A stretch of DNA of 64,000 nucleotides from Permianibacter fluminis (lineage in GTDB: Bacteria; Pseudomonadota; Gammaproteobacteria; Enterobacterales; Permianibacteraceae). The position numbers were made by a program, and so were the translations under genes. The notes beneath the pieces are model-generated. The model was not told the DNA's origin. It saw nothing but the letters and a program-made list of their open reading frames with translations, and ran no database searches. The first letter of the stretch is position 1. Each line of letters starts with the position of its first letter. Positions 13,099 through 64,000 of the stretch are shown here, in pieces. The stretch covers positions 434,001-498,000 of the forward strand of contig NZ_JABMEG010000001.1 of the NCBI RefSeq assembly GCF_013179735.1, given 5' to 3'.

Positions 13099-15192
13099 CT
13101 ACTGCCCTTGCGCCAACACAATCAGCGTGCCGTCCTGATAACCAATCGCGACATGTTCGGCCGTGCTGGCCACTGTTTGCGGCAATCCTTGGTAAGGCAA
13201 TGCCTGCTGCGTCGACTGTTCCGGCGCCGCCATCGACCAGCTGGTCCAGCCCTGCGCAGTCAGCCAGATCCAAGCTGCGTCGGTTTTGCTGAATAGCCCT
13301 TCGCCGTCGGCACCGGTTTGTTGCCAGCGCTGCTCACCACTGTCGGCGGCAATGCCGATGACGGTGCCATCATCCCGGCGCAGTGCCAGTTGATCGCCAT
13401 GGCTTTGCAGCGCTTGCAGCGTCGCGGCAAACGGCTGCGACCACAGCGGCTCGCCGGCCAGTGAGAAACTCTGCAATTGCCCGGTGGCGGTTTGCACCAG
13501 CAGGCGATCGTTCACCGCCTGCACCGGCTGCACCACCACACCGGCCAGTGGTTGCCGCCACAAGGGTTTGCCATCGATGCCGACAGCAACCAGCTGCGGA
13601 CTGGAATCCACATAATAAATGCGCTCGCCATGCAGCAACGGCGGCGCGGTCATGACCACCGATGGCGGCAGCACCTGACTCCATAGCCAGGCACCGGTCG
13701 CGGCGTTTTCCGCGGCCAGCATCGATTGTCCGGCCACAATGAAATTGCCATCGGGCAACGGCAGCACACTGTGCACGGCGCTGATGCGCGGCGATGACAA
13801 TTCGGCGCTGATTTCACCATCGATGGTGAACACCACGGCGTGACCCGTACTGGTGACGGCGAGCACCCCACCGTCGTTGGCCAGCGGCACAATGTCGGCG
13901 ATCAAACGCGCTTTCAGATCGTGACTTGCCTTGCTGACGCCGGTCTGCAGATCGCGCCAGCTCAGCTTGCCATTGGCATCGGCAACAACGACCGCATTTT
14001 CCAGCAACAGCGGTTTCAACAGCCGGGCATTGCTGGCCACCTGCTGCGTCCAGAGCGCGCGACTGGCTTGTGCTGCAGACGCAGCTGTCGATGTCGGGCG
14101 CGCATTTGCCGGCGTCCGACTGAACCACCACCACGACGCGGCCAGCACGGCGATCAGCAGCAATGCGGCCGTTGCCAACAAGGCGGTCTTGTTGCCGTTG
14201 CCGGCGCTGGCGCTGCGCTGATGGCTGTTTCGGTCTTTGTTGCTCTGATTTGTGTTGCTACTCGCTGCGCCGCTGCCGCCAGTGCTGCTACCGTCGCGGC
14301 GTTTGCTGTCAGCGGTCAGCGTCTTGATCGGTTGCACCCGGCCAGTGACGCGACCAAAACCCACTTTGTCGCCGACCACCAGAACCGCACTTTCGATCCG
14401 CTGATCGTTGATGAAGCTACCGTTGCGGGAACCCGAGTCAACCAGCTGCCAGCCATCGCCCTGCCAGCGGATGATCGCGTGCTGACCGGAGACGCTGCCG
14501 TCGGCGATCACGAAATCATTGTCCGGACCGCGACCGAGTCGCAGGTCCTGCTGGGTCAGCGGCACCATCAGCATGCTGCCATCCGGCAGATTCACTTCCA
14601 GTTCGGCCAGTGGCGTATCTGCGCTGACGGTGGCCAGCGATTGTGTCGAACCAGCTTTACCCGGCGCGCGCGCATTCAACTCGGCAACTGCATCGCGAGT
14701 ATCGAATACGGTGGTGTGCTGGCGCGGCGTGCCGGAAACGGGTCCCGTGTTGGCTGCGGTATTAATTTCAGCGACAGGTGCAGGTGCAGGTGCAGGTGCA
14801 GGTGCAGGTGCAGGTGCAGCAGTCTGACTGGCGGCGATATGTGCGGCCAGTTGCGCTTCGGTGATGGCCGGCCGCAGCACGGTGGCCTGAAAGGTGGGTT
14901 CCGGTGCCTTGATCTGGAACGCCAGGGTATCGAAGCGCAACCAATCGCCATCGTGCAATTCGGTTTCGGCGTCGATGCGGCGATCATTGACGAAGCTGCC
15001 GTTGGCGCTGCCCAGATCGCGCACGTATAACTTGCCGTCACGCAAACTGAGTTCGGCATGACGGCGCGACACATGCGGCGAGCCGAGCACAATATCAACC
15101 TCGGCGGCGCGGCCAAGCACTGCCGTCGCGGTTACTTCAATCGCCGGTTGATCAGCGGCGCTACTTTCCAGGGTCCAGTTCAGGCGGCTCAC
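13099..15192 (-). CDS. Double-FHA, single-pass membrane protein with periplasmic PQQ-type beta-propeller
   Basis: 697 aa, GTG start overlapping the PP2C stop (GTGA). FHA1 about residues 20-95 (GR...SRRH...GSANGSF), a Pro-Ala linker 126-140, FHA2 about 205-285 (GRG...SGQH...GSRNGSF), a Ser/Asn-rich basic stretch 296-334, a transmembrane helix about 336-357, then about 340 residues of repeated WQQTG/W-type blades resembling PQQ/pyrrolo-quinoline-type propellers. Both FHA domains keep the Arg, Ser and His/Asn used to bind phosphothreonine. It probably joins cytosolic phosphopeptide binding to a periplasmic propeller. It is the last gene of the operon cytochrome-barrel-phosphatase-FHA. Confidence 0.85.
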   Translation of the reverse strand: MSRLNWTLESSAADQPAIEVTATAVLGRAAEVDIVLGSPHVSRRHAELSLRDGKLYVRDLGSANGSFVNDRRIDAETELHDGDWLRFDTLAFQIKAPEPTFQATVLRPAITEAQLAAHIAASQTAAPAPAPAPAPAPAPVAEINTAANTGPVSGTPRQHTTVFDTRDAVAELNARAPGKAGSTQSLATVSADTPLAELEVNLPDGSMLMVPLTQQDLRLGRGPDNDFVIADGSVSGQHAIIRWQGDGWQLVDSGSRNGSFINDQRIESAVLVVGDKVGFGRVTGRVQPIKTLTADSKRRDGSSTGGSGAASSNTNQSNKDRNSHQRSASAGNGNKTALLATAALLLIAVLAASWWWFSRTPANARPTSTAASAAQASRALWTQQVASNARLLKPLLLENAVVVADANGKLSWRDLQTGVSKASHDLKARLIADIVPLANDGGVLAVTSTGHAVVFTIDGEISAELSSPRISAVHSVLPLPDGNFIVAGQSMLAAENAATGAWLWSQVLPPSVVMTAPPLLHGERIYYVDSSPQLVAVGIDGKPLWRQPLAGVVVQPVQAVNDRLLVQTATGQLQSFSLAGEPLWSQPFAATLQALQSHGDQLALRRDDGTVIGIAADSGEQRWQQTGADGEGLFSKTDAAWIWLTAQGWTSWSMAAPEQSTQQALPYQGLPQTVASTAEHVAIGYQDGTLIVLAQGQ
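14780..14818 (-). repeat. GGTGCA hexanucleotide tandem repeat coding Pro-Ala
   Basis: About six perfect GGTGCA units on the plus strand, reading Ala-Pro on the minus strand, form the linker between FHA1 and FHA2. A perfect array like this can change length by slippage in whole codon pairs without a frameshift. Confidence 0.9.
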
Positions 15193-16097
15193 TTGTTATT
15201 CTCTTCGTCGCGAAAAAAGGCCAGCGGTTTGCTCAGCAACTTGCCCGCTTTTTCTTTGCTGCTATCCAGCCAGGATTTGTCCGAATCGGCGCCGGCCGAT
15301 GCATCAGCTGCCGCCGGTGCGGTTACGGCGCGGCGCACGGCGGTGACGTCAACCGAGCCGGTGGTGCGCAGCTGCAGTGACTGGGCATCGGTCAGCGCTG
15401 CAACCAGGATCACCGTCACGTTGTCATTGCCACCACGCTCCAGCGCGGCATTGATCAACGGTTGCAGCGCGCCGGTTGCCGGCGAGGCCCGGCGCAGAAT
15501 GGCGGCGATAGCATCGTCGCTGAGTTCGCCATTCAAGCCGTCACTGCACAGCAGCAGGCAATCGCCCGGCTGCAGATCATGATCAACCACGCCAACCTTG
15601 ACATCGGTCGTATGCGCCGAGCCCATGGATTGCAGAATGACATTGCGTTTCGGATGCACGCTGGCTTCGGCCGCGGTGATGGCGCCGCTGTCGAGCAGAT
15701 GCTGGACAAAGGAATGATCGCGGGTCAGCTGACGCAGCACATTGTTTTGCCAGAGATAAGCGCGGCTGTCGCCAACCCAGGCGATCTGGCAATGCGCGTC
15801 GTGAATCTTCAGCGCCACCACGGTCGAGCCCATGCCGGCAGCGCCTTCACCGTTGGCCGCGGCGGTGCGTACGGCGTGATGCGCCTGCTGAACCGCTTCG
15901 GGCAAGGGTTGACCCGCGCCAATTGCGGCGGTGATGGACTCGCAAACGATGCGGCTGGCCACTTCACCCGATTCGTGACCGCCCATGCCATCGGCCAGCA
16001 ACCAAAGTCCGGCCTGCGGCAACGCCAGATAGGCGTCTTCGTTGTGCGGGCGCACGCGACCGGTATGGGTCGCGGCGGCATGGTGCAAGGTGATCAT
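15189..16097 (-). CDS. PP2C-type Ser/Thr protein phosphatase
   Basis: 302 aa. Dephosphorylates Ser/Thr with two metal ions. The metal-binding motifs are intact: RVRPHNEDAYL, LLADGMGGHESGE, AWVGDSRAYL, LLLCSDGLNGELSDD and GGNDNVTVILV. After the catalytic domain (to about residue 240) comes a roughly 60-residue tail, polar and Lys/Ser-rich, ending in FFRDEENNK. It sits between the outer-membrane barrel and the FHA gene and overlaps the latter by 4 bp. The natural reading is that it resets phosphothreonines read by the neighbouring FHA domains; the matching kinase is not in this window. Confidence 0.93.
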   Translation of the reverse strand: MITLHHAAATHTGRVRPHNEDAYLALPQAGLWLLADGMGGHESGEVASRIVCESITAAIGAGQPLPEAVQQAHHAVRTAAANGEGAAGMGSTVVALKIHDAHCQIAWVGDSRAYLWQNNVLRQLTRDHSFVQHLLDSGAITAAEASVHPKRNVILQSMGSAHTTDVKVGVVDHDLQPGDCLLLCSDGLNGELSDDAIAAILRRASPATGALQPLINAALERGGNDNVTVILVAALTDAQSLQLRTTGSVDVTAVRRAVTAPAAADASAGADSDKSWLDSSKEKAGKLLSKPLAFFRDEENNK

Positions 16098-16130: not shown

Positions 16131-17690
16131 TCAGAACTTCATCCGGAGTTCGGCCCGAACCCCGGACAAATCGATGCTGTCGCCGTCTTCCTTTTCTGCC
16201 TGCGCGATCATGGCATCGGCGCGGAAAATCCAGCGCGACAGAAACGGCCGCTGATAGCGCACGCCCAGGCCATATTGGGCGCCGTCGATGCCGCTGTGTT
16301 CGTCATCGTGCCGATCAACCGCCGCGAGTTCGACCACCACTTGCTGATCCAGTGCAAACAGGCTCTCGATGCCGACCGCAATGCCGTAAGTGTTGAAGGC
16401 ACTGTCATTCAGCGTTGGGTAGCCGGTCAGGCCATCGGATTCAAACAGGATACCGACATTGCGCAGCAGGCCCCCGGTACCGGCGCCGCGCGCCAGTGAT
16501 TGCGGCCGATCCAGACCGTAGAACAGATTCAGATACGGAATGAAGGTCGATGGCGAGCTGGTGACAAACGAGTTTTCGATAATGAACAAAGTGCCGTCGG
16601 CGCTGTTGTCAAAACCGATTGGCGCGGTGTCCTGACCCTGGCTGGCGATGATCCGCAGCGAGTTTGACAGCCAGCTGCCATAACGGCGGGTGAACGATAG
16701 CGCAATGCTGTTATAGGACTGATCAAAACCGGCGATGGCGTCGGTGTCGTCTTTGGTGCGGGCGAAACCCAATTCCCAGTAACCGCGATTGGCTTCGACA
16801 AAAGCATTGAAGCCAAACACGCTGACCTTGTCCTGTTGCCGGCTGTTGAACGGAATATTGCCACCCGCCGTGGCGTCGGCCAGCAGCGGACTGTTCCAGT
16901 CGGCACTGCCGCCAAAGAAAGTCAGATCATAATTGGAGATATCGAGCGCCTTGCTGTGGCCGGCCGGCAAGGTGAACACCATGCCGGTGAACGCATCATC
17001 GAGCCAGATGCCGTTGTGGAATTGCAGCGGTACCCGACCGATGGCAAACGGCAGATCCCAACTCTGGGCGTGACCGGTCACGCCCGCGACGATGGCACCG
17101 AGATCGCCTTCAAAAAAGGCGGCGTCGATATTGTGGTCGGTTTCGACCTCCGAAACTTCATCGTCGTCATTCGGCGCCGAGAAGATCGAGCGGGTAAACC
17201 GGCCATCGTCTTCCAGCGGCGTGTAGCTGACGTGGATGCGTTCGGTCGCGGTGATTTGCCAATCCGCTTCCAGATTCAGCCGGGCCGCGACCTGACTCAC
17301 CGCGCCATCGCTGTCGATGGCCGGATCATCAATTTCATTGCGGGCGACGGCCAGTCGGGCATCACCGTACAACAGAAACTGGCTGTTGGTCGGATTGCTG
17401 GCGCCGAGATAATGGCCCGATGCCGAAATCGGACCGGTATCGTAAATCCGGCGGCCCCATTCGATCGGCGGGCGCGGATTGTGATTTTCTTTTTTGTCAC
17501 CGTAGATGCGCCGCTGCTCATCGGCATCGTAGGCATCGCTGTATTTCGGATCGGTTTTGAAATCGCCGCTGTCCGCTTCGGCCGGTTTGGCTTTGGCATC
17601 CATTGCCGGCGCGCTATCCGATGCCAGCGCAACCGGGCTCAAGCACGCAGCAACGCTCAGGGTCAGCAGGAGTGAGGAGATGGTTTTCAT
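16131..17690 (-). CDS. Outer-membrane beta-barrel protein of unknown family
   Basis: 519 aa. A clear signal peptide (MKTISSLLLTLSVAACLSPVALAS) is followed by an acidic/polar stretch, then long alternating strands rich in aromatic residues, ending in ELRMKF with the C-terminal Phe expected of BamA-inserted barrels. No Cys-x2-Cys-His is present, so it carries no c-heme. It starts 11 bp after the pentaheme gene. By position it could be the outer-membrane partner of the cytochromes, as porins are in known metal-oxidising or -reducing systems, but I see no specific similarity to MtrB/PioB. Confidence 0.7.
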   Translation of the reverse strand: MKTISSLLLTLSVAACLSPVALASDSAPAMDAKAKPAEADSGDFKTDPKYSDAYDADEQRRIYGDKKENHNPRPPIEWGRRIYDTGPISASGHYLGASNPTNSQFLLYGDARLAVARNEIDDPAIDSDGAVSQVAARLNLEADWQITATERIHVSYTPLEDDGRFTRSIFSAPNDDDEVSEVETDHNIDAAFFEGDLGAIVAGVTGHAQSWDLPFAIGRVPLQFHNGIWLDDAFTGMVFTLPAGHSKALDISNYDLTFFGGSADWNSPLLADATAGGNIPFNSRQQDKVSVFGFNAFVEANRGYWELGFARTKDDTDAIAGFDQSYNSIALSFTRRYGSWLSNSLRIIASQGQDTAPIGFDNSADGTLFIIENSFVTSSPSTFIPYLNLFYGLDRPQSLARGAGTGGLLRNVGILFESDGLTGYPTLNDSAFNTYGIAVGIESLFALDQQVVVELAAVDRHDDEHSGIDGAQYGLGVRYQRPFLSRWIFRADAMIAQAEKEDGDSIDLSGVRAELRMKF

Positions 17691-17701
17691 TGACGCTGCC
17701 C

Positions 17702-19429
17702 CTATTTCACTTCAAACGAAGCCGAGTAGGCATGCATGTTCAGCATGCCCTCATTCATCGCGCGTTCCATGTCCTGGGTCGCGCCGACAAATCGCATGAA
17801 GTAAATGGGCTCTGCCCGCGATCGCAAGCGCACGGACAGGCGATAAGTGCCGGGTTTCTTGACGAGCTCGCCCGGCACGGTAAAGGCCGCCGTGCGATTG
17901 CCGAGCGGCGGAATGCTGCGCTGTTCCATTCGCACCAGCGGCGGGTGATTCATCACCGTGACCGGCTGCGCTGCCGGCCGCAGGAACGGCAATTGATCGA
18001 TGTCCAGGTTGACCGGCAAATACATTTCCCGCTCGGTGCCTTTGACATTGGTGGTCAGGAATTTGGTTTGCAGATTGAACAGCTGATCATCGTGGGCGAT
18101 GCTGCCGTTGCGCACATCCAGTGAATGCAGATCCGCCATGTCGCCATTGGAATCGACATAACCGGATTCCCAGATTCGCACGCCAGCCGGATTGATCAGC
18201 GCCACGTTCATCCACAGCTCCGGTTGCGCACCGAGCGAACCGGATGGCACGTTGTGGCCGGGATTGATGTTGTTGACCAAATAATTGAATTTCAGATCGG
18301 AGCCGACTTGCAGCGTCGACGGGAAAAACGGTCCGCTCAGACTGAGGCCGTTGTCCATCACCGCCGCCCGTTCCTGCTGCTTGATCGCGAGCTTGCCGAG
18401 GTTTTCCTGAATGATCGCCCAGGCTTCCTCCCGGTCTGCCGGCTCCGCCCAGGCCTCTGGAAATTCGATGTCGATGAGCCCGTCTTCCACCCGCCGCTCA
18501 AACGCCTCCGAGCCCCATTGCGCGCGGAAATCGAAGCCGAGCCAGTCTTCAACCGACCAGCGCTGGGCTTTGCTGTTGTGCGGGAACACGCCCGGATGGG
18601 CAATGGAATAGCCGGGACCATAGAAAGCGTGATTGTGATGCTCGCGCTGCGGTTCGATCGGCTTGCCTTCGATCACCGCCACCGGCCCGGTCTCATAACC
18701 TTCGGCCTTACCCGGCACTTTGCCCATGTGACATTGCTGGCAGCTGATGCCTTGCGCATGCGCCGGCGATGCGCGGTATTGATCCCAGACCACTTCCAGC
18801 TTGATGCCCAGATTGACCGCCACCTGATGACAGCTGGCGCAGAATTCCGAACGCTGCAGTTGCTCCATTGGCACTGCGGCCAGGTGAATGCGTTTGCCTT
18901 TTTCTTCTTTAGCCGTGGCAACTTTGTAGAACTCTTTGTTGCTGATTACATTGGCTAGCTCGGGGCCATTTTTCGCACCATAGACCGGGGCAAAAATTTC
19001 GCCCGGATCGATGCGGCGCTCACCGTTGACCTTGCCGTATTCGGTGCTGACCCGGTGACAAGTCACGCAGGTGACACCTTCACGGCCAACGGCACTGCGC
19101 TTCCACAAATCAATGGCGCGACTTTCACCGAGCGACGAGCCAACGCTGGCATGACAGCGCACACAAAAGCCGCCGAGACTGGGCGCCAGGCCGTTGATGG
19201 TTTGTTCGAATTTGTGAAACATCGGCGAAACAGCCGAATAGGCGTGAGCGGAGCGACTCCACTCCTCGTAATGCTGTTTGTGGCAGCCGGCGCATTGCGT
19301 CGCCGACGGATAGGCACTTTCGCCATACAGTGCCTGATGCGGGTCCGGCTCACTGGCGCCGGCGATGCCGCTGTGCAGGAAAAGCAGCCCTGCGACCAAC
19401 GCAATTGTGCGTCGCAACAAAACGAACAT
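17702..19429 (-). CDS. Pentaheme c-type cytochrome, periplasmic
   Basis: 575 aa. Signal peptide to about residue 25 (LVAGLLFLHSGIAGAS). Five c-heme sites: CAGCH, CVRCH, CVTCH, CASCH and CQQCH, all within the first ~235 residues, in the spacing seen in cytochrome c554-like multiheme proteins. The C-terminal half has no heme sites and looks like a beta-rich domain (NNINPGHNVPSGSLG, with His for possible distal ligation). AAGGAG precedes the ATG. First gene of the leftward operon, so periplasmic redox is its probable entry point. Heme attachment needs the Ccm system, which is not in the window. Confidence 0.92.
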   Translation of the reverse strand: MFVLLRRTIALVAGLLFLHSGIAGASEPDPHQALYGESAYPSATQCAGCHKQHYEEWSRSAHAYSAVSPMFHKFEQTINGLAPSLGGFCVRCHASVGSSLGESRAIDLWKRSAVGREGVTCVTCHRVSTEYGKVNGERRIDPGEIFAPVYGAKNGPELANVISNKEFYKVATAKEEKGKRIHLAAVPMEQLQRSEFCASCHQVAVNLGIKLEVVWDQYRASPAHAQGISCQQCHMGKVPGKAEGYETGPVAVIEGKPIEPQREHHNHAFYGPGYSIAHPGVFPHNSKAQRWSVEDWLGFDFRAQWGSEAFERRVEDGLIDIEFPEAWAEPADREEAWAIIQENLGKLAIKQQERAAVMDNGLSLSGPFFPSTLQVGSDLKFNYLVNNINPGHNVPSGSLGAQPELWMNVALINPAGVRIWESGYVDSNGDMADLHSLDVRNGSIAHDDQLFNLQTKFLTTNVKGTEREMYLPVNLDIDQLPFLRPAAQPVTVMNHPPLVRMEQRSIPPLGNRTAAFTVPGELVKKPGTYRLSVRLRSRAEPIYFMRFVGATQDMERAMNEGMLNMHAYSASFEVK

Positions 19430-19757: not shown

Positions 19758-21641
19758 ATGCGTTCACTGATTGCAAGATCTGCACGTTGCTTGCTGTTGG
19801 CTTTGCCGCTCGTGCTGGCCAGCGCCGCGCAGGCCGCCAGCCCGGCCGACCTGACCGGGCCGAGTCGCTGTATCGAATGCCACGAGACACCGTTCGACGT
19901 CTGGAAAAATACCCATCACTTCAGCAGCGGCGATGCCATGCCCAAAGCCGCCAGCGCCAAAGAGATCGCCGACAAACTCGGCATCAAGCGCATCAAGGAT
20001 CCGGGCAGCCCCTGCGCGCAATGCCATTTCACCGCCGCTGAAATCGAAGGCCGGGTCAAGATTGTTGGTGGCGTCAGTTGCGAAAGCTGTCACGGTCCGG
20101 CCAAGGGCTGGATTGAAATCCACAACGATTTCGGTGGCCCGGCCATCAAGAAAGATCAGGAAAGCAAGGAGCATCGCGAGCAGCGGCTGCGCACAGTCGA
20201 AGCCGCCGGCATGATCCGGCCCGGCCGCATTTACGAATTTGCCCGCAACTGTTTTGGTTGCCATCTGGTGATCAACGAAAACCTGGTCAGCGAGGGCGGT
20301 CACGGCATCGGCAAGGATTTCGATCTGGTTGATCGGATGACCGGTGAAGTGTTGCACGGGCCCAAACCCGACGCCGCTCGCAAACGGCTGATCCGGATCG
20401 CCGGTTATGGTGCCACCGTGGAGATGAGTCTGCGCGGCATTGCCGGCGCCAAGGCGGCCGACTCGGTCTATCTGAAAACCCTGCGCGAACGTCTGGCCAA
20501 TGCCTATGCCTCGCTCAGTGAAATCAACGCCAAGGCGGGCAATCCGGCGCTGCGTGCCGCGCTCGGTGCCGCCAGCGAAAACGCTTTTGATCCGGGCAAT
20601 GCCGCGCTGGCCTCCGGCGCCGACAAGGTCCGGCAACAATTGAACAGCGCGCTGCAATCCCTAGATGGCGGCCAACTGGCCTTTGTCGATGCGCTGTCAC
20701 CGATCCGTGGCGCCAAACTGCCTGCGGTCAGCGCGGGCAAGGCGGTAGCCGCCGCCGACAAGCCGGCCAAACCGGCAGCAGCGACACCCGCATCGACGCC
20801 GGCATCGACATCGACACCGGCATCGATAACAACAGCACCAGTGACAGCAGCACCCGCAGCAGCAACGCCAGCGAAACCCAGTCCGGCGCCAGCCAGTACA
20901 CCCGCAACTGCATCAGTAACCACTCCGGCAAGCGCACAAGCAAGCACGCAAACAAGTACACAAACAACAGCCGCACCGACAACCACGTCGACCACAAAAC
21001 CGGTCAGCAGCAAACCCGCTGCCGAAACGGCGAGTAGCAGCAATAAACCGGCCGCTGCCAGCAACAGCACGGTCAGCGCTCCGGTTACTGCGCCGGTCAC
21101 AGCACCAGCGACGGCTGTCGTGACCAACGCCGGCATCACTGCGACTGCCAGCAACAACACCAACAGCACCAACGTCAACAACAACACGGCCTGGCTGCTG
21201 GTACCGACCCAGCCGGCGCTGTGCCTGACCCGGTCGCCGTGGTGGTTGGGCGAATCGCTGTTGACCCACCTGCCAACACCGGCGCCACGTTGCCTGAGCT
21301 TTGTCGCGCCGATCGCGGACTTCGCCAGTTATGTTTTTGTCGCCGACCCGGCCGGCAAAATCAGCACACTTTGGAGCACGGCCGATTGCGGTGCGGTGCG
21401 GCAAGCACCGGAACAGGAACCGTGGCCGACACTGCAATTGCCGGAACACAGTCAGCAGCTGTGGCTGGTGCAAATCAGCACCGGTCAGCGTCAGCAATTG
21501 ACGGCGAGCCTGGCCCTGACGCCAATGGTGGACTGCTCGCGGGCACAGTCGCTGACCCTCGATGCCAGTACGCTGACGCACAAGCTGGGCGAGTTACAGC
21601 AGAGCGCCGGCGCAGCGCTCCAGGTGTATGTGACGCAATGA
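19758..21641 (+). CDS. Tetraheme cytochrome c (c554-like) with long disordered linker
   Basis: 627 aa. Signal peptide ending near AQA (residues 1-26). Four heme sites: CIECH, CAQCH, CESCH and CFGCH, with extra His residues (NTHHFSS) that could be axial ligands, as in cytochrome c554. Residues about 335-475 are almost only Ala, Pro, Thr, Ser, Asn and Gln, a flexible linker. The last ~150 residues (from LLVPTQPALCLTRSPWW) form a Cys-containing folded domain of unknown kind. A long-reach periplasmic electron shuttle is plausible. First gene of the rightward operon. Confidence 0.88.
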   Translation: MRSLIARSARCLLLALPLVLASAAQAASPADLTGPSRCIECHETPFDVWKNTHHFSSGDAMPKAASAKEIADKLGIKRIKDPGSPCAQCHFTAAEIEGRVKIVGGVSCESCHGPAKGWIEIHNDFGGPAIKKDQESKEHREQRLRTVEAAGMIRPGRIYEFARNCFGCHLVINENLVSEGGHGIGKDFDLVDRMTGEVLHGPKPDAARKRLIRIAGYGATVEMSLRGIAGAKAADSVYLKTLRERLANAYASLSEINAKAGNPALRAALGAASENAFDPGNAALASGADKVRQQLNSALQSLDGGQLAFVDALSPIRGAKLPAVSAGKAVAAADKPAKPAAATPASTPASTSTPASITTAPVTAAPAAATPAKPSPAPASTPATASVTTPASAQASTQTSTQTTAAPTTTSTTKPVSSKPAAETASSSNKPAAASNSTVSAPVTAPVTAPATAVVTNAGITATASNNTNSTNVNNNTAWLLVPTQPALCLTRSPWWLGESLLTHLPTPAPRCLSFVAPIADFASYVFVADPAGKISTLWSTADCGAVRQAPEQEPWPTLQLPEHSQQLWLVQISTGQRQQLTASLALTPMVDCSRAQSLTLDASTLTHKLGELQQSAGAALQVYVTQ

Positions 21642-21663
21642 TCGGCAGCGACAGGTGAGAGCG

Positions 21664-23334
21664 ATGGCGAACTCCGTATCCATAGGCCGCGATGCCAGCA
21701 ACGATATCTGCCTGTCCGAGGCGTTTCTGTCGAGCAAGCATGCCGAGATCACGCTGGAGGATCCGACCAGCCTGAAATTTCGCCTGCGTGATCTCGGTTC
21801 GACCAATGGCACCTTTCTCAATGGCAAGCGCATCACCGAAGCCGAGTTCGAATTGTCCGACACCATCATGTTGGCCAATCGCCGGCTGGCGGTGGACGAG
21901 TTCTTGCCGAAGCTGCTCGGCAGCGTCACCCGCAGCAGCAAAACCGCCGCTGCGAGCCGCAGCAAGCCACAATCGTTTCGCCTGCTGCTGCTGATCGGTG
22001 CGGTGCTGGCCGGCCTTGCCAGTGCCGGCTTGCTGTTGCTGTCCGGCCAGCAGATCAACGGTCAGGCGATCAGTGGCCAGAATCTGATCCTCGCCAGTCT
22101 CGGGATTGCGGTGCTGAGCACCGGCATCATGGTGGTCGGCGACAATCTGCGCCGCACGTTTGTCCGCGCCCGCGCCGAACGCCAGTATCTGGATTTGCGC
22201 CTGCGCGCGCTGGCCGACGAAATCGAACAGAAAACCCAGCGCAAGACCAAACAGACGGAGCACAACAAAGGTTGGGAAGGTTTTCGTAAATTCCAGTTGG
22301 CGCGGCGCACCGACGAAGCCAACGGCATCACCTCGTTTTATCTGGTGCCGCACGATGGCAAGGCGCTGGCGCCTTACGCGCCCGGCCAGTATCTGACGCT
22401 GCGGCTGCAGATTCCCGGTCAACCGAAACCGGTGGTGCGCTGTTACTCGCTGTCCGATTGTTTTCGCGATGGCCATTACCGCATTTCGGTCAAGCGCGCC
22501 CGTGGCAGCAAACCGGGCGAGCCGGATGGTCTGGTCTCCGGTTATCTGCACGAGCAGGCGCAAGTCGGTGAGCTGCTCGACGTCAAGGCGCCGAGCGGTT
22601 CGTTCCATCTCGATGAAAGTTCGTCGCGGCCGGTCGTGCTGTTGGCGGGTGGTGTTGGCATCACGCCGATGCTGGCGATGTTCAACTCCGTGCTGGCCAG
22701 CGGCCGGCGCCGGGAAGTGAAACTGTTTTATGCCGCTCGCGCCGCTGATGAATTTGTCCGGATCAGTGAACTGGCCGAAGCCGATTTGCACAGCGACCAC
22801 ATCAGCGTGCATTTCTTCTGCAGCAGTCCGGATGAGCAGGGTCGGTTGCCGAGGCAATCGGTGCAGTTTGAACGACTCAGTGTCGAGCAGCTGAAAAAGA
22901 TTCTGCCGTCGAACAACTACGAATTTTATTTGTGCGGGCCCGGGCCATTCATGTCGGCGCTGGTCGGCGATTTGCGCAGTTGGGGCGTGCCCGACGGCGA
23001 TATTCATTTCGAGGCCTTCGGTCCGTCCACGGTTGCCACAAAACCGGCAGCCGGCGCCGCCGAACCGGTCGCCACCGCAGCAGTCACCGTGACCTTTGCC
23101 CGCTCCAAGAAAACCATGCGCTGGAGCGCCAGCGACGGCAGCCTGCTGGAAGCTTGTGAACGCAATGGCATCGCGCTCGATTCCGGTTGCCGCGCCGGCA
23201 ACTGCGGCACCTGTCAGGTGGCGCTGGTGTCCGGCAAAGTCAGTTACAGCAGCCAGCATGACGTCACGCCGGAATCCGGCTCCTGTCTGGCCTGCATTGC
23301 CACGCCTGACAGCGATATCACGGTGGATGCCTGA
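21664..23334 (+). CDS. FHA - two-TM - ferredoxin reductase - [2Fe-2S] fusion protein
   Basis: 556 aa from the ATG at 21664 (AGGTGAGA upstream; a GTG at 21655 is possible). FHA domain about residues 4-75 with the phosphothreonine-binding set (GRD, SSKHAE, GSTNGTF). Two transmembrane helices about 107-128 and 141-161 form a hairpin, so both ends are cytosolic. Then a FAD/NAD(P)-binding reductase (RCYSLSD, VSGYLHE, LLAGGVGITPM, FYLCGPGPFM) and a plant-type [2Fe-2S] ferredoxin with C-x4-C-x2-C (CRAGNCGTC) plus a distal Cys. It should take electrons from NAD(P)H at the inner membrane. The FHA fusion implies control by phosphorylation. The stop overlaps the next start (TGATG). Confidence 0.93.
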   Translation: MANSVSIGRDASNDICLSEAFLSSKHAEITLEDPTSLKFRLRDLGSTNGTFLNGKRITEAEFELSDTIMLANRRLAVDEFLPKLLGSVTRSSKTAAASRSKPQSFRLLLLIGAVLAGLASAGLLLLSGQQINGQAISGQNLILASLGIAVLSTGIMVVGDNLRRTFVRARAERQYLDLRLRALADEIEQKTQRKTKQTEHNKGWEGFRKFQLARRTDEANGITSFYLVPHDGKALAPYAPGQYLTLRLQIPGQPKPVVRCYSLSDCFRDGHYRISVKRARGSKPGEPDGLVSGYLHEQAQVGELLDVKAPSGSFHLDESSSRPVVLLAGGVGITPMLAMFNSVLASGRRREVKLFYAARAADEFVRISELAEADLHSDHISVHFFCSSPDEQGRLPRQSVQFERLSVEQLKKILPSNNYEFYLCGPGPFMSALVGDLRSWGVPDGDIHFEAFGPSTVATKPAAGAAEPVATAAVTVTFARSKKTMRWSASDGSLLEACERNGIALDSGCRAGNCGTCQVALVSGKVSYSSQHDVTPESGSCLACIATPDSDITVDA

Positions 23335-25016
23335 TGAGTACACCGCCGTCGGCGCTGCAGGCCAAGCGCGCCTCCATCTGGGATGTGCAATTTGATCCGA
23401 CGATGACGCCCGCGGTGGTGCAGTCGCTGTTGGCAAAACCGCCGTTTGCCGACATGGATCGCAGCGCCTTTCCCGACAACAGTTCGCTGGACGATATTCT
23501 GCTGCACGAATGTGCGCTGCGGACCATCGAACCAGATCAAGTCGTGATCCGCCAAGGTGACTACGGCACCAGCGCCTTTTTTCTGCTGACCGGTCGACTG
23601 GCGGTCTGGGTCAACACCGGCCAGACTCGCGCCCGCAAAAGTGACGAACGCGAACTGTCGTGGTTGACCGCATTGAAGCAAAGTTTTCACAAGCCGGTCG
23701 TGCCGGAAGTGCGCGATGTCGGTAGTCGCAAAGCAGGCACCAGCACCCGCCGCGAAGATGCCGCGCTGTTCATTCAGGATCTGCCCGGCGTCGTGCAGCC
23801 GGATGGCCGCGCCGAGCTGCAGCCCGGTGCGCTGTTTGGCGAAGCCTCGGCGGTGACCCGGACACCGCGCTCGGCCAATATCGTCGCGATGGAACGCAGT
23901 CAGGTGTTGGAGATCACCTGGCAGGGTTTGCGGGCACTGATGCGATTCAGCCCGGCTTTGAAGCAGCACGTCGACAACCGTTTCCGCAAAGACAATCTGT
24001 ATGTGTATCTGCGCTCGCTGCGGGCACTGACCGGCGCTGCCGACACTGTCATCAAACGACTGGCCGATGCCGCGCTGTTCGAACGCCATGGCCGGTTCGA
24101 CTGGCATGTCGATTTCAAACGCGAGACGGCTGCTACCGCCGGCGCCGCCGCCGAACCGGTGATCGTCGAGCAAGGCAGCTATCCGAATGGCATTTATGTC
24201 GTGCGCAGCGGCTTTGTCCGGATCAGCCGGCAATTCAATCACGGTGAACAGACGCTGGCCTACCTTGGCAAAGGCGAATGCTTTGGTTTGCAGGAAGCTT
24301 ATGCGGCCTGGTCATCGAAGACCGGTCAGGCGTTTCGCTTTTCGCTGCGTGCCATTGGCTATGCCGACATCATTCTGCTGCCTACTGCTGCGGTCGAAAA
24401 ATTGCTGTTCGAAACCGGCTTTCAGCCGCCGCCGGCAACAGCGACTGAAACCAAACTGAACGCCGAGCCGCTGGCACTGGCGCCACGGGAAACCGGCTTG
24501 CTTGAATTTCTGGTCGAGAACCGGTTCATCAACGGCACCAAGACCATGCTGGTCAACACCGACCGCTGCACCGGCTGCGACGAATGCATCCGGGCCTGTG
24601 CCGATGCCCACGACGGCAACAGTCGCTTTGTCAGGGAAGGACCGAAATACGAAAACCTGTTGGTCGCCAACGCCTGCATGCATTGCCACGATCCGGTCTG
24701 CATGATCGGCTGCCCGACCGGCGCCATTCAGCGCGAGGCGGATCAGGGTTACGTTCACATTCAGGATGATATCTGCATCGGCTGCGCGACCTGCTCGAAC
24801 AGCTGTCCCTACAACAATATCCGGATGACGACGATCCGCGATCGCAGCGGCGCGATTTATCTGGATGAATCCCGGGCCCCGATTCTGAAAGCCACCAAAT
24901 GCGATTTCTGCATGAACCAGCTGGTCTCACCGGCCTGTCAGAATGCCTGCCCCCATGACGCCCTGGTGCGCATGGATGTCAGCGATAGCGAGCGCTTGAA
25001 AAAATGGCGCAGCTAA
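23334..25016 (+). CDS. Tandem cyclic-nucleotide-binding domain / four-[4Fe-4S] polyferredoxin
   Basis: 560 aa, no signal peptide. Two CNB-like domains (about residues 45-215, with an inserted basic loop, and about 240-380), with LQPGALFGEASAVTRTPRSANIVA in the place of the phosphate-binding cassette of the first. From about residue 405 comes a DmsB/NrfC-like ferredoxin with four cluster motifs: CTGCDECIRAC, CMHCHDPVCMIGC, CIGCATCSNSC and CDFC...CQNAC. Its likely job is to relay electrons between the reductase and a membrane partner. The CNB part may sense cAMP/cGMP or act structurally; the second domain's cassette is degenerate. It overlaps the next gene by 13 bp. Confidence 0.92.
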   Translation: MSTPPSALQAKRASIWDVQFDPTMTPAVVQSLLAKPPFADMDRSAFPDNSSLDDILLHECALRTIEPDQVVIRQGDYGTSAFFLLTGRLAVWVNTGQTRARKSDERELSWLTALKQSFHKPVVPEVRDVGSRKAGTSTRREDAALFIQDLPGVVQPDGRAELQPGALFGEASAVTRTPRSANIVAMERSQVLEITWQGLRALMRFSPALKQHVDNRFRKDNLYVYLRSLRALTGAADTVIKRLADAALFERHGRFDWHVDFKRETAATAGAAAEPVIVEQGSYPNGIYVVRSGFVRISRQFNHGEQTLAYLGKGECFGLQEAYAAWSSKTGQAFRFSLRAIGYADIILLPTAAVEKLLFETGFQPPPATATETKLNAEPLALAPRETGLLEFLVENRFINGTKTMLVNTDRCTGCDECIRACADAHDGNSRFVREGPKYENLLVANACMHCHDPVCMIGCPTGAIQREADQGYVHIQDDICIGCATCSNSCPYNNIRMTTIRDRSGAIYLDESRAPILKATKCDFCMNQLVSPACQNACPHDALVRMDVSDSERLKKWRS

Positions 25017-25825
25017 GTCCGCGTTGGCGCGCCAGAGCGATTAAGTCCGGCCTGACCGCAGCGGCGTTTGCGCTGCTGGTGCTGCTGTGGAAACTGGCGC
25101 CGTCGTTGTCGGCGCAGCGCAATCTGACCGGCTGGGTACTGGCCGGCGCTCTCGTGCTATTGCTCAGCCTGCGGCTGAAACGGCTGCTGCGTCTGCTGCC
25201 ACTGGGCAGCAATTATCACTGGACCCAGTTGCATGTGTATGTCGGCATTTTTGCTCTGGGCGCCTTGCTGTTGCACGGCGAGTTCAGTAGCCGATCCGGG
25301 CCGTTCTGGTGGCTGCTGTTCCTGCTGGTCTGGGCCAGTGTGCTGTCTGGCGTTTTGGTGATCCTCGGCGCCCGCTGGTTGCCGCGCACCACCCGCAATT
25401 TCGACAGCAATGTGTTGTACGAAAAAATCCCCCAGTATCGGGCACTGTGTGCGGACCGCATGGCAGCCTTGTATCAACAAATTGCCGACACCGCCAAATC
25501 GGATCTGGTGTTCCGGCAAACGGCCGGCTGGCTGTTTGCCAAGGTCAACGCCCGCCAGCACACGCTGCTGCATATTGTCGGCAATCGCTTGCCGTTTCAG
25601 GCGGCTGAACAGCGGGTCGAATCGATTCGCCGCTATCTGAATCAAACCGAACAGGATCTGCTCGACGAATTGCTGAGCGTTTATTTGCAGAAAGTCGAAC
25701 TGGATGCTCAGGAAAGCGTGCAATGGCTGTATCGCTTGTTGCTGGTCAGTCACCGCGTACTCACGGTCAGTGCCTTGCTGCCGATCGTGCTGCATGTGCT
25801 GGTGATCTATGCCTATCTGGATTGA
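25004..25825 (+). CDS. Four-to-five-helix membrane protein, probable di-heme cytochrome b
   Basis: 273 aa, overlapping the ferredoxin gene by 13 bp. Hydrophobic segments: about residues 17-32, 42-56, 77-92, 103-122 and 250-270. Two helices carry the same pattern H-x13-H: His77/His91 and His250/His264, which is how b-hemes are ligated in FRD/YedZ-like ferric-reductase membrane domains; His72 is additional. A roughly 120-residue cytosolic insertion lies between them (about 130-245). The natural role is moving electrons across the membrane. No family name is assigned. Confidence 0.75.
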   Translation: MAQLSPRWRARAIKSGLTAAAFALLVLLWKLAPSLSAQRNLTGWVLAGALVLLLSLRLKRLLRLLPLGSNYHWTQLHVYVGIFALGALLLHGEFSSRSGPFWWLLFLLVWASVLSGVLVILGARWLPRTTRNFDSNVLYEKIPQYRALCADRMAALYQQIADTAKSDLVFRQTAGWLFAKVNARQHTLLHIVGNRLPFQAAEQRVESIRRYLNQTEQDLLDELLSVYLQKVELDAQESVQWLYRLLLVSHRVLTVSALLPIVLHVLVIYAYLD

Positions 25826-25828
25826 TAC

Positions 25829-27604
25829 ATGACAGCACCGACTGAAAAGGATCGCGGCGCATTCTGGCGACCTTCGTCGCAGTATCTGTGCGGCCATTTG
25901 CCCTGCGGCAAACCCTGTCAGCAAGGGCCGGACGCGCAAGGCCAGTGTCAGACCAGCACCGAATGCATTCCGGCCAAACGTGGCGCGCGCTGGCATTGCA
26001 CCCGCGCCGCCAGCGCCGGCGGCCCGTGCAGCGACGGCCCGACTCCGCAGGGCAGTTGCGCGCACGGTTTGCCACGCTGCTCGCCGATCCGCAGCCCGCG
26101 TCGGCGCTATCGCCAGATGATCGCCGGTTTGTTCGTGTTGGCGCTCGGCGTGACGCTGCTGATCTTTGCTCTGGCACCGGCGAAAGGTTTGAGTCCGGGC
26201 CCGTTGTCAGCCAAGCACGCTGCTGGCACGGCCGGTTGTGAAAGCTGTCATCAACTGGACGGCAGCGCCAGCGTAATGGCGGTGGTTGCCGGCGCGTTCT
26301 CGCACCACCCCAACGAACAGCAATGCTTCGACTGTCATACCGACAAAGCGTCACCGCATTCGGCGCATGACGGGGCCTTTACCGCGGCGGCAACGGAAAA
26401 TCCATCGGCAACAAAAAACCTGATGTGCCGCGAATGCCACCAGGAACATGACGCACCGTTGTTGCCCGGCCGCAGCAAGCAAATGGCGGTTTGCAATGAT
26501 TGCCACCAGCAGCGCCAGCATGCTTTCCCGGATCACAGCCGTTTTGCCGATTATCCGTATCAGCGGGTCAATCAATTGCGCTTTGATCATCGCAGCCATC
26601 TGGAAAAACATTTCCCGGCCAAGCAGGTCGCCGGTCAGCCGAAGGTGAGTTGCGTCAGTTGTCACAGCGCAACCGATGACGGCCGCTTCATGCAGGTCAA
26701 CCGCTTTGCCGATGCCTGCGCCAGCTGTCACCAGAAGAGCCTGACGGCGGAACCGCTGTTGTTGCTGGCGCTGCCCACGCTGGACCTGCCGGCCTTGCAG
26801 CGCGCCGGTGTCGACACCAGCGGCTGGCCGGAAGAAGGCGATGATGTGGTGTTCGCCAATGCCAGCTTGCTCAGCATTGCCAACCTGAGCGATGGCAAGA
26901 TTCCGGCGCTGCAATTGCTGAATCAGGATGTCAGTGATTTGTCGGCGGCAAGCCCGGCGCAGATCAAACTGGTGGCGCAAGTCAGCAGCGCGATTCGCCG
27001 CAGCCTGCATGCCTTGAATGCGGAAGCCCTGCCTGCGGCGGCTGTGACGGACAATCCAGTTATAGACAAGTCAGATCTCGACAAAAACAAACTGGCGCAA
27101 TTGCGCAGTGCCTTGGCCGAGCTGCCGCAAAAAAATCGCCACTTGAGTGACACGCAACTGGCGGTAACCCCGGAGAGTCACGGCGCCGCGGCACTGACCC
27201 TGCTGTTGCAGCCACGGCCGGATTTGCCAGCCGCCAGTTTTCCAAAACCCTGCAGCAGTTGCCATGCGCCAATGGCAGCGCCCGGTCAGCAAGCGGGCTG
27301 GCAATCACCGCTGCGCTCGGTCAAAGCCGGCAGCACGGTGATCTTTGGCCATCGTCAGCATTTGTTGTCGATGGGTGACAGCGGCTGCCAGAGTTGCCAC
27401 CGCTACAATGAGAGTGATGGCGATAACGAGCCCGGCAGCGACAAGAGCCAGAAAACGCCGACAGCCATGCACTCCTTTGCCACCATTCCGGTCAGCACCT
27501 GCGCCAGCTGTCACGACGGCAAAACCGACGCCGGCAATTGCAGCAGCTGTCACCAATACCACATCGGCACAGCTGCTCCGATCGCAGCGGAGGAAACGCC
27601 TTAA
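25829..27604 (+). CDS. Membrane-anchored decaheme cytochrome c with Cys-rich cytosolic N-terminus
   Basis: 591 aa. Residues 1-95 are cytosolic by the positive-inside rule (SPRRRYRQ precedes the helix) and carry nine Cys (21, 26, 30, 40, 46, 57, 67, 77, 84) with a duplicated motif C-x2-GP-x3-G-x-C (CQQGPDAQGQC and CSDGPTPQGSC). One transmembrane helix about 97-116. The periplasmic remainder has ten CxxCH sites: CESCH, CFDCH, CRECH, CNDCH, CVSCH, CASCH, CSSCH, CQSCH, CASCH and CSSCH, with repeated cytochrome-c3/c7-like spacing. The N-terminal cysteines may bind metal or an Fe-S cluster, which would let one chain bridge the membrane. It is the last gene of the operon. Confidence 0.9.
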   Translation: MTAPTEKDRGAFWRPSSQYLCGHLPCGKPCQQGPDAQGQCQTSTECIPAKRGARWHCTRAASAGGPCSDGPTPQGSCAHGLPRCSPIRSPRRRYRQMIAGLFVLALGVTLLIFALAPAKGLSPGPLSAKHAAGTAGCESCHQLDGSASVMAVVAGAFSHHPNEQQCFDCHTDKASPHSAHDGAFTAAATENPSATKNLMCRECHQEHDAPLLPGRSKQMAVCNDCHQQRQHAFPDHSRFADYPYQRVNQLRFDHRSHLEKHFPAKQVAGQPKVSCVSCHSATDDGRFMQVNRFADACASCHQKSLTAEPLLLLALPTLDLPALQRAGVDTSGWPEEGDDVVFANASLLSIANLSDGKIPALQLLNQDVSDLSAASPAQIKLVAQVSSAIRRSLHALNAEALPAAAVTDNPVIDKSDLDKNKLAQLRSALAELPQKNRHLSDTQLAVTPESHGAAALTLLLQPRPDLPAASFPKPCSSCHAPMAAPGQQAGWQSPLRSVKAGSTVIFGHRQHLLSMGDSGCQSCHRYNESDGDNEPGSDKSQKTPTAMHSFATIPVSTCASCHDGKTDAGNCSSCHQYHIGTAAPIAAEETP

Positions 27605-54614: not shown

Positions 54615-57101
54615 CTACGCCAGATTTTTGCTGTCGGCAGATTGACGATAACGCGCCATCAAGCGGGTGGCGAGTTGTTCCGGTGTCGCCCGTTGATGAG
54701 CAAGACCGGCCTGATGAATGGCATCCGGCATGACGCTACTGGCGCAGCTTTCCGCTTCCTGCACCCAGATCTGGCCCTGACCATCGCGAATCGCCCGGGC
54801 GCCGTCAACGCCATCCTCGCCCATGCCGCTGAACACGATGGCATGGACCTGACCCGGATACGCGGCGGCGACATCGCTGAGGACATCGTCAATGCAGGGT
54901 GAATACGGCGGCGTCCAGCTCTTGCCGCTGTGCACGATCTGACCGGCATCGAGAAAGCGCAGCCGCTTTTCAATCGGCGCCAGCAACAGCGAACCCGGCT
55001 CGATGAGACCCGGACGCGCCAGCACCTGCACCGCGTAAAACGGATTGGCCTGTTCGAGAATTTTGCCGAGCACCGGCAGGAAATGGGCATCGATATGCTG
55101 GGCCAGCAAAAAGCAAATCGGCAATGGCTGATCGAGTGCGGTGAAGAAACGTTTCAGTGCCGCCGGACCACCGAGTGAAGCGCCGAGCACCCAAAGATCA
55201 CAGGGCAATGCTGGCGGCATATCGGTAACCGCTTCGAATTCGCTGGCGTTGGCACTGGCGACGCTTTCCAGCATCGGCACATCAAAATCAGCGTGTGGTT
55301 CCAACTCATCGGCCGCCGGTTCAAAATCAACCGCCTCAAATTCCATGTCCGCCATATGGGCCGGTGTCAGCGTCGGCACCGGCTCGACATAACTGCCGGC
55401 CGCCGGCATCGGCTTGTGCCCGGCCGCATCAGATTCCGGCGCTGCCTTGCTCTCGGTGGCTTTTATCGTTGGCTTTGCATGTGCTGCCGCAGCGCTGCCC
55501 GGCACCACTGCCAGCGGTCGCGCCGGTTCACGCATCGGCCCGCTCGCGGGCTGCGGCTGAATCGGCGCGAAATCGGCGGTGTCTGCTTCGATTGCCAACT
55601 GCTGCGCGCCGCGCTCGGCTGCCGGCGCCGGAAAGGTCGGCCAATCATGTTTTTCTGGCGGCGAAACCACCGGCTCCAGCGCGGTAATATCGAGCGTTAC
55701 ATTGCTGCCGGCTTTGGCTTCTGGTGTTTTCTGTTCCGGTGTTTTCTGTTCTGGTGCTTTCGGTTCGGCTGTTTTCTGATCTGCGACTTTCTGTTCGCTT
55801 GGTTTTGTTGCCGGTGTCGAAATAGATACCGTGGTTTGCGTACTGGCAACGGCCGCTTGGCTCGCCGCGAGCGCTTTTTCCGGCACCGCTGTCGTACTGG
55901 CCGGCACCACAGACGTATTGGCTGGCGCAGTGGGCGCGCTCAGCGGTGCTGGCGCCAGTTTGCTGGCGACCGGGGTCGCTGTCGGGGTTGCCGTTGATGC
56001 GGTTGTCGCTGTCGCCGGTGCGGTCACTTTTGCTGGCGTTGCCGGCACTGCATGTGCGGTACTTGCGGCGGCATTTGCAACAGTGCTCGCGGCTATGTTC
56101 GCAACTGCGGGCGCCATCTTCGGCGCTGAATCAGCCGCTGAGATTGGTGTTGACGCAGCCGGTGTAACCGGCGCCGCTTCGGTGAGCGCTGCAGGTGCGG
56201 CTTTGCCGAGATTCGCCGCTGCCTGTTGCTTGATTTTCGCGGCCCGTTCCTTGGCGGCTGCGACCGGATCCAGCGGTTTGGCGGCGCTGTCGGCAGTGGC
56301 CACCGGCGTTGCCGTACTCGCAGGCTTTTCGGCAGGTGTTTTTGTGGTCTGCTCTGCAGCCTTTTCGCTGATCTTTTCGGCGGCTTTTTCTGTGGTTTTT
56401 TCCACCGCTTTCTCGACCGGCTTTTCTGCTGGTGCGGTCGCCGCAGTGGGGGCCGGCTTCGGTGGTGCAGGTGGTGCTTTCGCAGTCGCGGCCGGAGTGA
56501 AAATGAAATCGTCCTGCGCGGCAGGCAGCGGCAAACTGTCGTCCAGATCCGGCAACACCTCCTGCTGCTTGGTCGGAGTCTGCAGCAACTGCTCGAGCTC
56601 TTCGATTTCCTGCAACAGATCCGGATCCAGCGCGGCTGGCGCGGGTGTCAGTTCATCGGAAGGTTTGCTCTCGGACTTCTTTTGCGCGCTGGCCGGAAAC
56701 GCGATGTGCACGGTCTCGCCGCTGCGGCTGGCAGCGGCCGCCGGCGCGCTGGCAACTGGCGGCAGGCCGGGAACATCGGCAACCAGCTCGAACATCCGAC
56801 TGATCAGATTGCGACACCAGTAATCGAGGTGCTGCTGGCTTTCAATGGCCTGGTGTTCGTTGAAGAAAATCGGTACCGAGGAGCGGTCCATCAACTCGTC
56901 GAGTTGATCGTGCCAGTGGTTGTCATCGAGATCGAGCAGCCAGACATCCAGATCGGTGGCGGCGATATGCGCATCGGTCAGATCTTTTGGCAGCAAGGCA
57001 TGCACCACTTGCATGCCTTGCTCGGCGAGCAGTCGCAGCAATTTACTGCTGCTGTCGTCGCCGCTGCCAATCAATCCGATCCGCAATGCCTGGCTTTTCA
57101 C
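54615..57101 (-). CDS. chpB: ChpB-type methylesterase with very long low-complexity linker
   Basis: 828 aa, GTG start. Residues ~1-105 form a receiver-like fold without the usual Asp acceptor pattern. About residues 130-620 are Ala/Pro/Lys/Glu/Thr-rich (VEKAVEKTTEKAAEKISEKA, EQKTPEQKTPEAK). The CheB catalytic domain follows with Ser642 (GASLGG), His669 (QHID) and Asp763 (GMGEDG). Removes methyl groups from receptor glutamates. The linker is far longer than in standard CheB (about 350 aa total). Confidence 0.9.
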   Translation of the reverse strand: MKSQALRIGLIGSGDDSSSKLLRLLAEQGMQVVHALLPKDLTDAHIAATDLDVWLLDLDDNHWHDQLDELMDRSSVPIFFNEHQAIESQQHLDYWCRNLISRMFELVADVPGLPPVASAPAAAASRSGETVHIAFPASAQKKSESKPSDELTPAPAALDPDLLQEIEELEQLLQTPTKQQEVLPDLDDSLPLPAAQDDFIFTPAATAKAPPAPPKPAPTAATAPAEKPVEKAVEKTTEKAAEKISEKAAEQTTKTPAEKPASTATPVATADSAAKPLDPVAAAKERAAKIKQQAAANLGKAAPAALTEAAPVTPAASTPISAADSAPKMAPAVANIAASTVANAAASTAHAVPATPAKVTAPATATTASTATPTATPVASKLAPAPLSAPTAPANTSVVPASTTAVPEKALAASQAAVASTQTTVSISTPATKPSEQKVADQKTAEPKAPEQKTPEQKTPEAKAGSNVTLDITALEPVVSPPEKHDWPTFPAPAAERGAQQLAIEADTADFAPIQPQPASGPMREPARPLAVVPGSAAAAHAKPTIKATESKAAPESDAAGHKPMPAAGSYVEPVPTLTPAHMADMEFEAVDFEPAADELEPHADFDVPMLESVASANASEFEAVTDMPPALPCDLWVLGASLGGPAALKRFFTALDQPLPICFLLAQHIDAHFLPVLGKILEQANPFYAVQVLARPGLIEPGSLLLAPIEKRLRFLDAGQIVHSGKSWTPPYSPCIDDVLSDVAAAYPGQVHAIVFSGMGEDGVDGARAIRDGQGQIWVQEAESCASSVMPDAIHQAGLAHQRATPEQLATRLMARYRQSADSKNLA

Positions 57102-57111
57102 TGCCGCTTAC

Positions 57112-63357: not shown

Positions 63358-63359
63358 GC

Positions 63360-64000
63360 CTACTCCGCTTGCGGGTTGCTACCGCGATGGCTGAATGCCA
63401 GACACTGCTTGTTTTGAATTCGGGTCAACGCCGGATGGTGCCAACGCAGCACTTCACCGGGAGCCAGCACCAACATGCCACCTGGCCGCAGATGCTCAAC
63501 CAATTGATTGAGCAAATCGCGCCGGCGCTCGGGCTGGAAATAAATCAGCAGGTTCTGGCAATAAATAATGTCGAATAACTGGTTCGGTGCGTGCCGCAGG
63601 TCGTGAACGTTGCCTTGGACAAAACAGGTGCGCTGGCGAACCGCCGGCATCACTTGGTAGTAGTCGTCACCAACGGCCTGAAAATAGCGCTCACGCTGCT
63701 CGTCGCTCAGACCGATCAAGCGGCGCAGGTGATAAATGCCTTCGCGCGCACTGGCCAGCGCGGGATAACTGATGTCGGTGCCGGTGACGCCGTAATAGAA
63801 CGGCCCGGTTTCGTCCTGCAACTCGTGCAGCGCCAGCGCCAGACTGTAGACCTCTTCCCCGGTCGAACAGCCGACACTCCAGGCCTGAATGCTGCGCTTT
63901 TGTTGCTCGCCATTCTGCTTGAGCAGATTGCGAACATAGCTGCGCACCAACTCGAACGATTCTTCGTGGCGGAAGAAACGGGTTTCATGCACGGTCAGCA
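63360..64000 (-). CDS. pilK: CheR/PilK methyltransferase, 5'-truncated by window edge
   Basis: At least 213 codons; the frame runs off the right end, since LTVHETRFFRHEESFE is an internal CheR sequence, so the GTG at 63992 is not its start. CheR blocks: VWSVGCSTGEEVYSLAL-type (AWSVGCSTGEEVYSLAL), FDIIYCQNLLIYFQPERR and LRPGGMLVLAPGEVL. Methylates pilus chemoreceptor glutamates with SAM. The C-terminal PilK-specific parts are not all visible. Confidence 0.9.
   Translation of the reverse strand, partial: LTVHETRFFRHEESFELVRSYVRNLLKQNGEQQKRSIQAWSVGCSTGEEVYSLALALHELQDETGPFYYGVTGTDISYPALASAREGIYHLRRLIGLSDEQRERYFQAVGDDYYQVMPAVRQRTCFVQGNVHDLRHAPNQLFDIIYCQNLLIYFQPERRRDLLNQLVEHLRPGGMLVLAPGEVLRWHHPALTRIQNKQCLAFSHRGSNPQAE

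Follow-up and report, generated by a model that had tools for sequence, protein, structure and literature searches.

We have identified, in a 64,000-nucleotide stretch of the Permianibacter fluminis genome (hereafter the window), a 556 amino acid protein in which an FHA domain is joined through a transmembrane (TM) hairpin to a FAD/NAD(P)H reductase and a C-terminal [2Fe-2S] domain (positions 21664–23334, plus strand). The fusion is real, and no second case turned up in the collections searched. The larger finding is the cassette of multihaem electron-transfer genes in which the FHA-reductase is housed, which is conserved in other genomes and apparently undescribed.

Domain order of the fusion protein

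The protein is encoded by a single, uninterrupted reading frame. Its ATG at 21664 is preceded by the RBS-like sequence AGGTGAG, and its stop codon (23332–23334) overlaps the ATG of the next gene (TGATG). Pfam matches, all four above the curated cut-offs, place FHA at residues 5–68 (2e-17), FAD_binding_6 at 220–315 (4.9e-9), NAD_binding_1 at 326–432 (4.5e-12) and Fer2 at 489–548 (2.1e-12). The one-chain order of FHA, two helices, FAD/NAD reductase and [2Fe-2S] domain proposed in a first-pass annotation is borne out by Pfam, helix prediction and AlphaFold. Its suggestion that this order is unusual also held up, in that no FHA-bearing orthologue or other full-length example was present among 99 relatives, 72,556 plasmid records or the 34 cassette reductases described below.

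The reductase with its plant-type ferredoxin (22279–23331, plus strand) carries the motifs RCYS, GGVGITP, CGP and CX4CX2CX26C. These correspond to the FAD motif RxYS (R259, Y261 and S262), the NAD motifs GGxGxTP (G329–P335) and CGP (C424–P426), and the [2Fe-2S] ligands C509, C514, C517 and C544 (CX4CX2CXnC), which are invariant in 12 aligned reductases. The reductase part is nearest to flavohaemoproteins and, when the ferredoxin is included, to phthalate dioxygenase reductase. With the FNR-type enzymes of these two groups (3ozu, 1cqx, 2pia) it has the FAD and NAD modules and all three nucleotide-binding motifs in common, and the C-terminal [2Fe-2S] domain is as in 2pia. It differs from them in being membrane-anchored without a globin or oxygenase partner, in its N-terminal FHA domain and in belonging to a multihaem cassette.

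The FHA domain (residues 1–80; 21664–21903, plus strand) scores 63.8 bits against PF00498 (cut-off 20.7) and barely passes PF16697 (33.6 bits, cut-off 33.2). Its site motifs are G8 R9, S23 K25 H26 (SxxH) and S46 T47 N48 G49 (SxNG). As the first-pass annotation had claimed, the phosphothreonine-binding residues are retained: R9, S23, T47 and N48 match the canonical contacts. S24 occupies a position that is an asparagine in Rad53. In the AlphaFold model the block-mean pLDDT over residues 1–70 is 88–98, and Foldseek superposes the model on GarA/OdhI (E about 3e-8; rmsd 1.1–1.3 Å to the closest GarA chains), a fit that is partly by construction since an FHA-domain alignment was the input for the model. 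GarA and OdhI share the FHA fold and the phosphothreonine-site residues with the window FHA but are soluble inhibitors of separate enzymes, whereas the window FHA belongs to the same chain as a membrane reductase and is shorter at its N-terminus.

The domain begins 7 residues ahead of the GR motif, where the 27 other domains in an FHA-only alignment have about 20 residues more, and its match to solved FHA domains begins well inside their chains. Strands 1 and 2 are therefore missing from what would otherwise be a complete 11-strand β sandwich. They are not hidden by a wrongly assigned start, because the open frame (566 amino acids) extends no more than ten codons beyond the ATG on its 5' side. 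The coding composition resembles that of the neighbours, with a GC3 of 0.775 compared with 0.724 for the reductase portion. The FHA domain is probably functional though truncated.

Two hydrophobic helices (residues 107–125 and 141–159; hairpin at 21967–22143, plus strand) separate the FHA domain from the reductase, and AlphaFold models them as helices 103–130 and 138–204. The linker ahead of them (residues 86–101, GSVTRSSKTAAASRSK) is rich in threonine, serine and basic residues, and the stretch 83–100 is modelled with pLDDT < 50.

The conduit cassette in the window and in other genomes

The FHA-reductase gene lies in a dense plus-strand operon (19758–27604) in which it follows a C554-type tetrahaem cytochrome gene (19758–21641) and precedes those for a cNMP-binding ferredoxin (23334–25016), a 273 amino acid membrane protein (25004–25825) and an inner-membrane decahaem cytochrome (25829–27604). 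The tetrahaem cytochrome has an Ala/Thr/Pro-rich extension of about 310 residues with a C-terminal domain (20703–21638) that is absent from its homologues. The ferredoxin has 16 invariant cysteines, for which four [4Fe-4S] clusters are expected. The membrane protein is a predicted dihaem cytochrome b. Its four histidines (H77, H91, H250 and H264) are conserved without exception across 34 aligned tetra-His proteins, including those of the Sphingobium and G612 conduits discussed below, and within each pair they are spaced by 14 residues, on two predicted helices. Histidine pairs 14 apart on two helices are the usual arrangement in bis-His dihaem cytochromes b. The protein belongs to no Pfam family, neither fold nor sequence comparison with the PDB gave a convincing match, and it probably represents an undescribed dihaem cytochrome b family. 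The decahaem protein consists of a Cys-rich N-terminus, a TM segment and ten CXXCH motifs. Its N-terminus (25829–26200) holds a doubled Cys-rich motif (CG..G..C..GP..G.C) that is without a Pfam match and also starts many of the cassette homologues.

A divergent minus-strand operon (19429–13099) encodes a pentahaem C554-type cytochrome (17702–19429; closest cassette orthologues about 60–66% identical), an adjoining predicted outer-membrane β-barrel with no Pfam family (16131–17690), a PP2C (Stp1-like) phosphatase (15189–16097) and an FHA-FHA-TM-PQQ/BamB-like β-propeller protein (13099–15192). The gaps are about 11, 33 and −4 bp, the last being the overlap of the propeller gene with that for PP2C. 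Both genes run co-directionally with those for the pentahaem cytochrome and the outer-membrane protein. There is no kinase gene among the cassette genes annotated in the window. An anti-phage reading was rejected, as PADLOC matches were limited to the generic cNMP-binding and PP2C parts. Elsewhere in the window (54615–63992) are chemotaxis-like genes for a 2081 amino acid CheA with four Hpt domains, CheB and CheR.

A seven-gene conduit cassette comprising the tetrahaem and pentahaem C554 cytochromes, outer-membrane protein, reductase, cNMP-ferredoxin, tetra-His membrane protein and inner-membrane decahaem cytochrome is also found in 39 further Pseudomonadota genomes. These were located by cNMP-ferredoxin searches of 395 genomes of the order, 369 of the class, 398 of the phylum and 385 of another class, plus one named contig (L026, from the MAG Rhizobium sp. 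Q54, whose cassette matches G890/L103). The order of the genes varies and some cassettes are without the pentahaem cytochrome and outer-membrane protein; otherwise the members recur where the contig allows. The window is of this kind, with the reductase, cNMP-ferredoxin, tetra-His protein, decahaem and tetrahaem C554 cytochromes together. The close relatives G001 (same genus) and G002 (same family) are without the cassette.

The reductases of the other cassettes (34 copies in 33 genomes, about 420–464 amino acids as called) typically have a single-TM N-terminus without other domains, from which the window protein departs in having an FHA domain and two helices. FHA was present on none of the 34, whichever of the four samples the cassette came from, and scanning the 39 genomes with an FHA profile likewise detected no cassette reductase with FHA. 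In 20 of the 39 there was no FHA match anywhere, so the conduit does not need FHA. The FHA domain on the window reductase thus looks like a lineage-specific graft. In a rooted reductase tree the window protein is basal, on a long branch; this may be a long-branch artefact, and the gain of FHA is therefore unreadable from this tree. The window cNMP-ferredoxin is likewise on a long branch in its own tree, and the pentahaem cytochrome is sister to that of G819 (SH-aLRT 87).

In most of the homologous cassette reductases the N-terminus has a single TM helix with basic residues after it, which points to an N-out/C-in topology with the reductase in the cytoplasm. This means that an FHA domain added at the N-terminus could be cytoplasmic only with a second helix, as in the window protein. 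The extra helix would keep FHA and reductase both in the cytoplasm, and we take the two-helix solution to suggest a graft adapted to function.

Known conduits resemble the cassette in part. The porin-cytochrome conduits Mtr/Mto, PCC3 and Uet, as described in PMC10734462, share with it an entry point for electrons at the inner membrane, multihaem cytochromes in the periplasm and an outer-membrane protein. The cassette differs in having an NAD(P)H reductase of its own and a cNMP-ferredoxin. It is not of the Mtr/DmsE type: the window outer-membrane protein matches neither Pfam nor the MtrB model, and the window cytochromes score 23.5–26.7 bits against the DmsE-family model TIGR03508 (cut-off 192.2). 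A parallel conduit on Sphingobium plasmid pMSHV (L027) and in G612 (L128) has, like the window, a cNMP-Fer4 protein, a tetra-His protein, a TM decahaem cytochrome and a cytoplasmic FHA-like domain. However, there the FHA-like domain is on the decahaem cytochrome and its site is degenerate (no SxxH and no SxNG; PF16697 matches), and the reductase is of the pyridine-nucleotide-disulphide type, fused to the ferredoxin. In G612 two conduits stand side by side, the cassette (L068) and the Sphingobium-type set; the latter comprises the FHA-decahaem protein, a pyridine-nucleotide reductase-cNMP-Fer4 fusion, the tetra-His protein and a 1280 amino acid ten-haem LVIVD-repeat protein. Our search of the open-access literature for FHA signalling on a redox conduit found no study and one related entry, a ten-haem ‘Forkhead-associated protein’ present in 27 genomes in a Gallionellaceae pangenome table (PMC10734462). 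By its name and haem count, this cluster (403) is probably of the FHA-decahaem conduit type.

A possible role for phosphorylation

An FHA profile scan of the genome found seven FHA domains in six genes, and there are four Hanks-type kinases. The 14.5 kb cluster contains two of these six genes where about 0.02 would be expected (P about 2e-4), a post hoc estimate that assumes random scatter. The cassette of G819 has an FHA gene on either side. Immediately downstream of the G819 reductase is an FHA gene (L127:8683–9684, minus strand) whose N-terminal part had been read by eye as a degenerate nucleotide cyclase, a reading that found no Pfam support. Taken with the parallel conduits, the conduits considered here show three arrangements of FHA: on the reductase, on the decahaem cytochrome and as separate neighbouring genes.

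The window protein is probably the NAD(P)H-facing enzyme that feeds electrons into a membrane-spanning haem chain. Electrons would pass from NAD(P)H through FAD and [2Fe-2S] to the cNMP-binding 4×[4Fe-4S] ferredoxin, then cross the inner membrane via the dihaem cytochrome b to reach the decahaem cytochrome, and finally the C554 cytochromes and outer-membrane protein, or take the reverse direction throughout. The histidine pairs, the 16 invariant cysteines and the TM-anchored decahaem make it plausible that NAD(P)H is linked in this way across the inner membrane. We infer this path, as we do the topology, the phospho-dependence and the identity of the partner protein. The FHA domain would have been grafted onto the reductase N-terminus together with the additional TM helix, leaving both domains facing the cytoplasm, and would most likely dock a protein phosphorylated on threonine by a Hanks-type kinase. 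Docking would recruit or switch the reductase, and the neighbouring PP2C would reverse the mark.

Phosphorylation control of this kind is the best explanation of the fusion, with a probability that we put at roughly one half. The presence of FHA on the window reductase and its absence from 34 relatives suggests that phosphorylation controls the electron pathway here, and support comes from the PP2C and FHA-FHA genes in the divergent operon, the four Hanks-type kinases and the FHA genes flanking the G819 cassette. The absence of the N-terminal strands and the FHA-less homologues weaken the proposal of the first-pass annotation that reductase activity may depend on a phosphorylated partner. Since the fusion occurs in one genome only, selection on the FHA site is without evolutionary support, and this counts against phospho-control, as do the lack of a kinase among the annotated cassette genes and the 20 cassette genomes in which FHA went unmatched. 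More tentatively, the conduit may be doubly gated from the cytoplasm. A second messenger would act through the cNMP sites of the ferredoxin, and Hanks-type Ser/Thr phosphorylation through the reductase FHA, PP2C and the FHA-FHA-propeller protein, the last two encoded in cis.

Next after phospho-regulation, and rather doubtful, is phosphorylation-independent scaffolding, in which the FHA domain would be an assembly or clustering module tying the reductase to other subunits in the cytoplasm or membrane, as do the FHA-like domains of the T3SS ring protein YscD/PrgH. In both parallel conduits the cytoplasmic end of the decahaem bears a degenerate FHA-like domain, which would fit such a role, as would the narrow margin by which the window FHA passes PF16697, but the binding residues of the window FHA are intact, unlike those of scaffold versions, and a PP2C is encoded in the neighbouring operon. 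The fusion might instead be a recent, largely neutral accident that left a truncated FHA fragment without a role. Its restriction to one genome, the lost strands and the long branch of the reductase all favour this; nevertheless we consider it unlikely, given an intact reading frame of neighbour-like composition, the retention of every ligand residue, a confidently predicted fold and an extra TM helix that preserves the topology of the reductase. Self-inhibition of the OdhI/GarA type, with FHA binding a phosphothreonine in its own linker and thereby switching the attached reductase, seems less probable still. GarA and OdhI are the closest solved FHA domains and the linker is Thr/Ser/basic-rich and modelled with low confidence, but a single sequence offers no support from phosphosite conservation and the linker may be of the wrong length for intramolecular binding.

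In conclusion, the fusion is a concrete test object for the idea that protein phosphorylation governs how electrons move between NAD(P)H and the haems of a multihaem chain. If the doubly gated reading were true, the exchange of electrons that links NAD(P)H to acceptors in the periplasm or outside the cell would be under phospho-control. Apart from the FHA domain, the cassette merits description in its own right, as it recurs in at least 39 further genomes and includes a cNMP-ferredoxin and a predicted dihaem cytochrome b that is so far unannotated.
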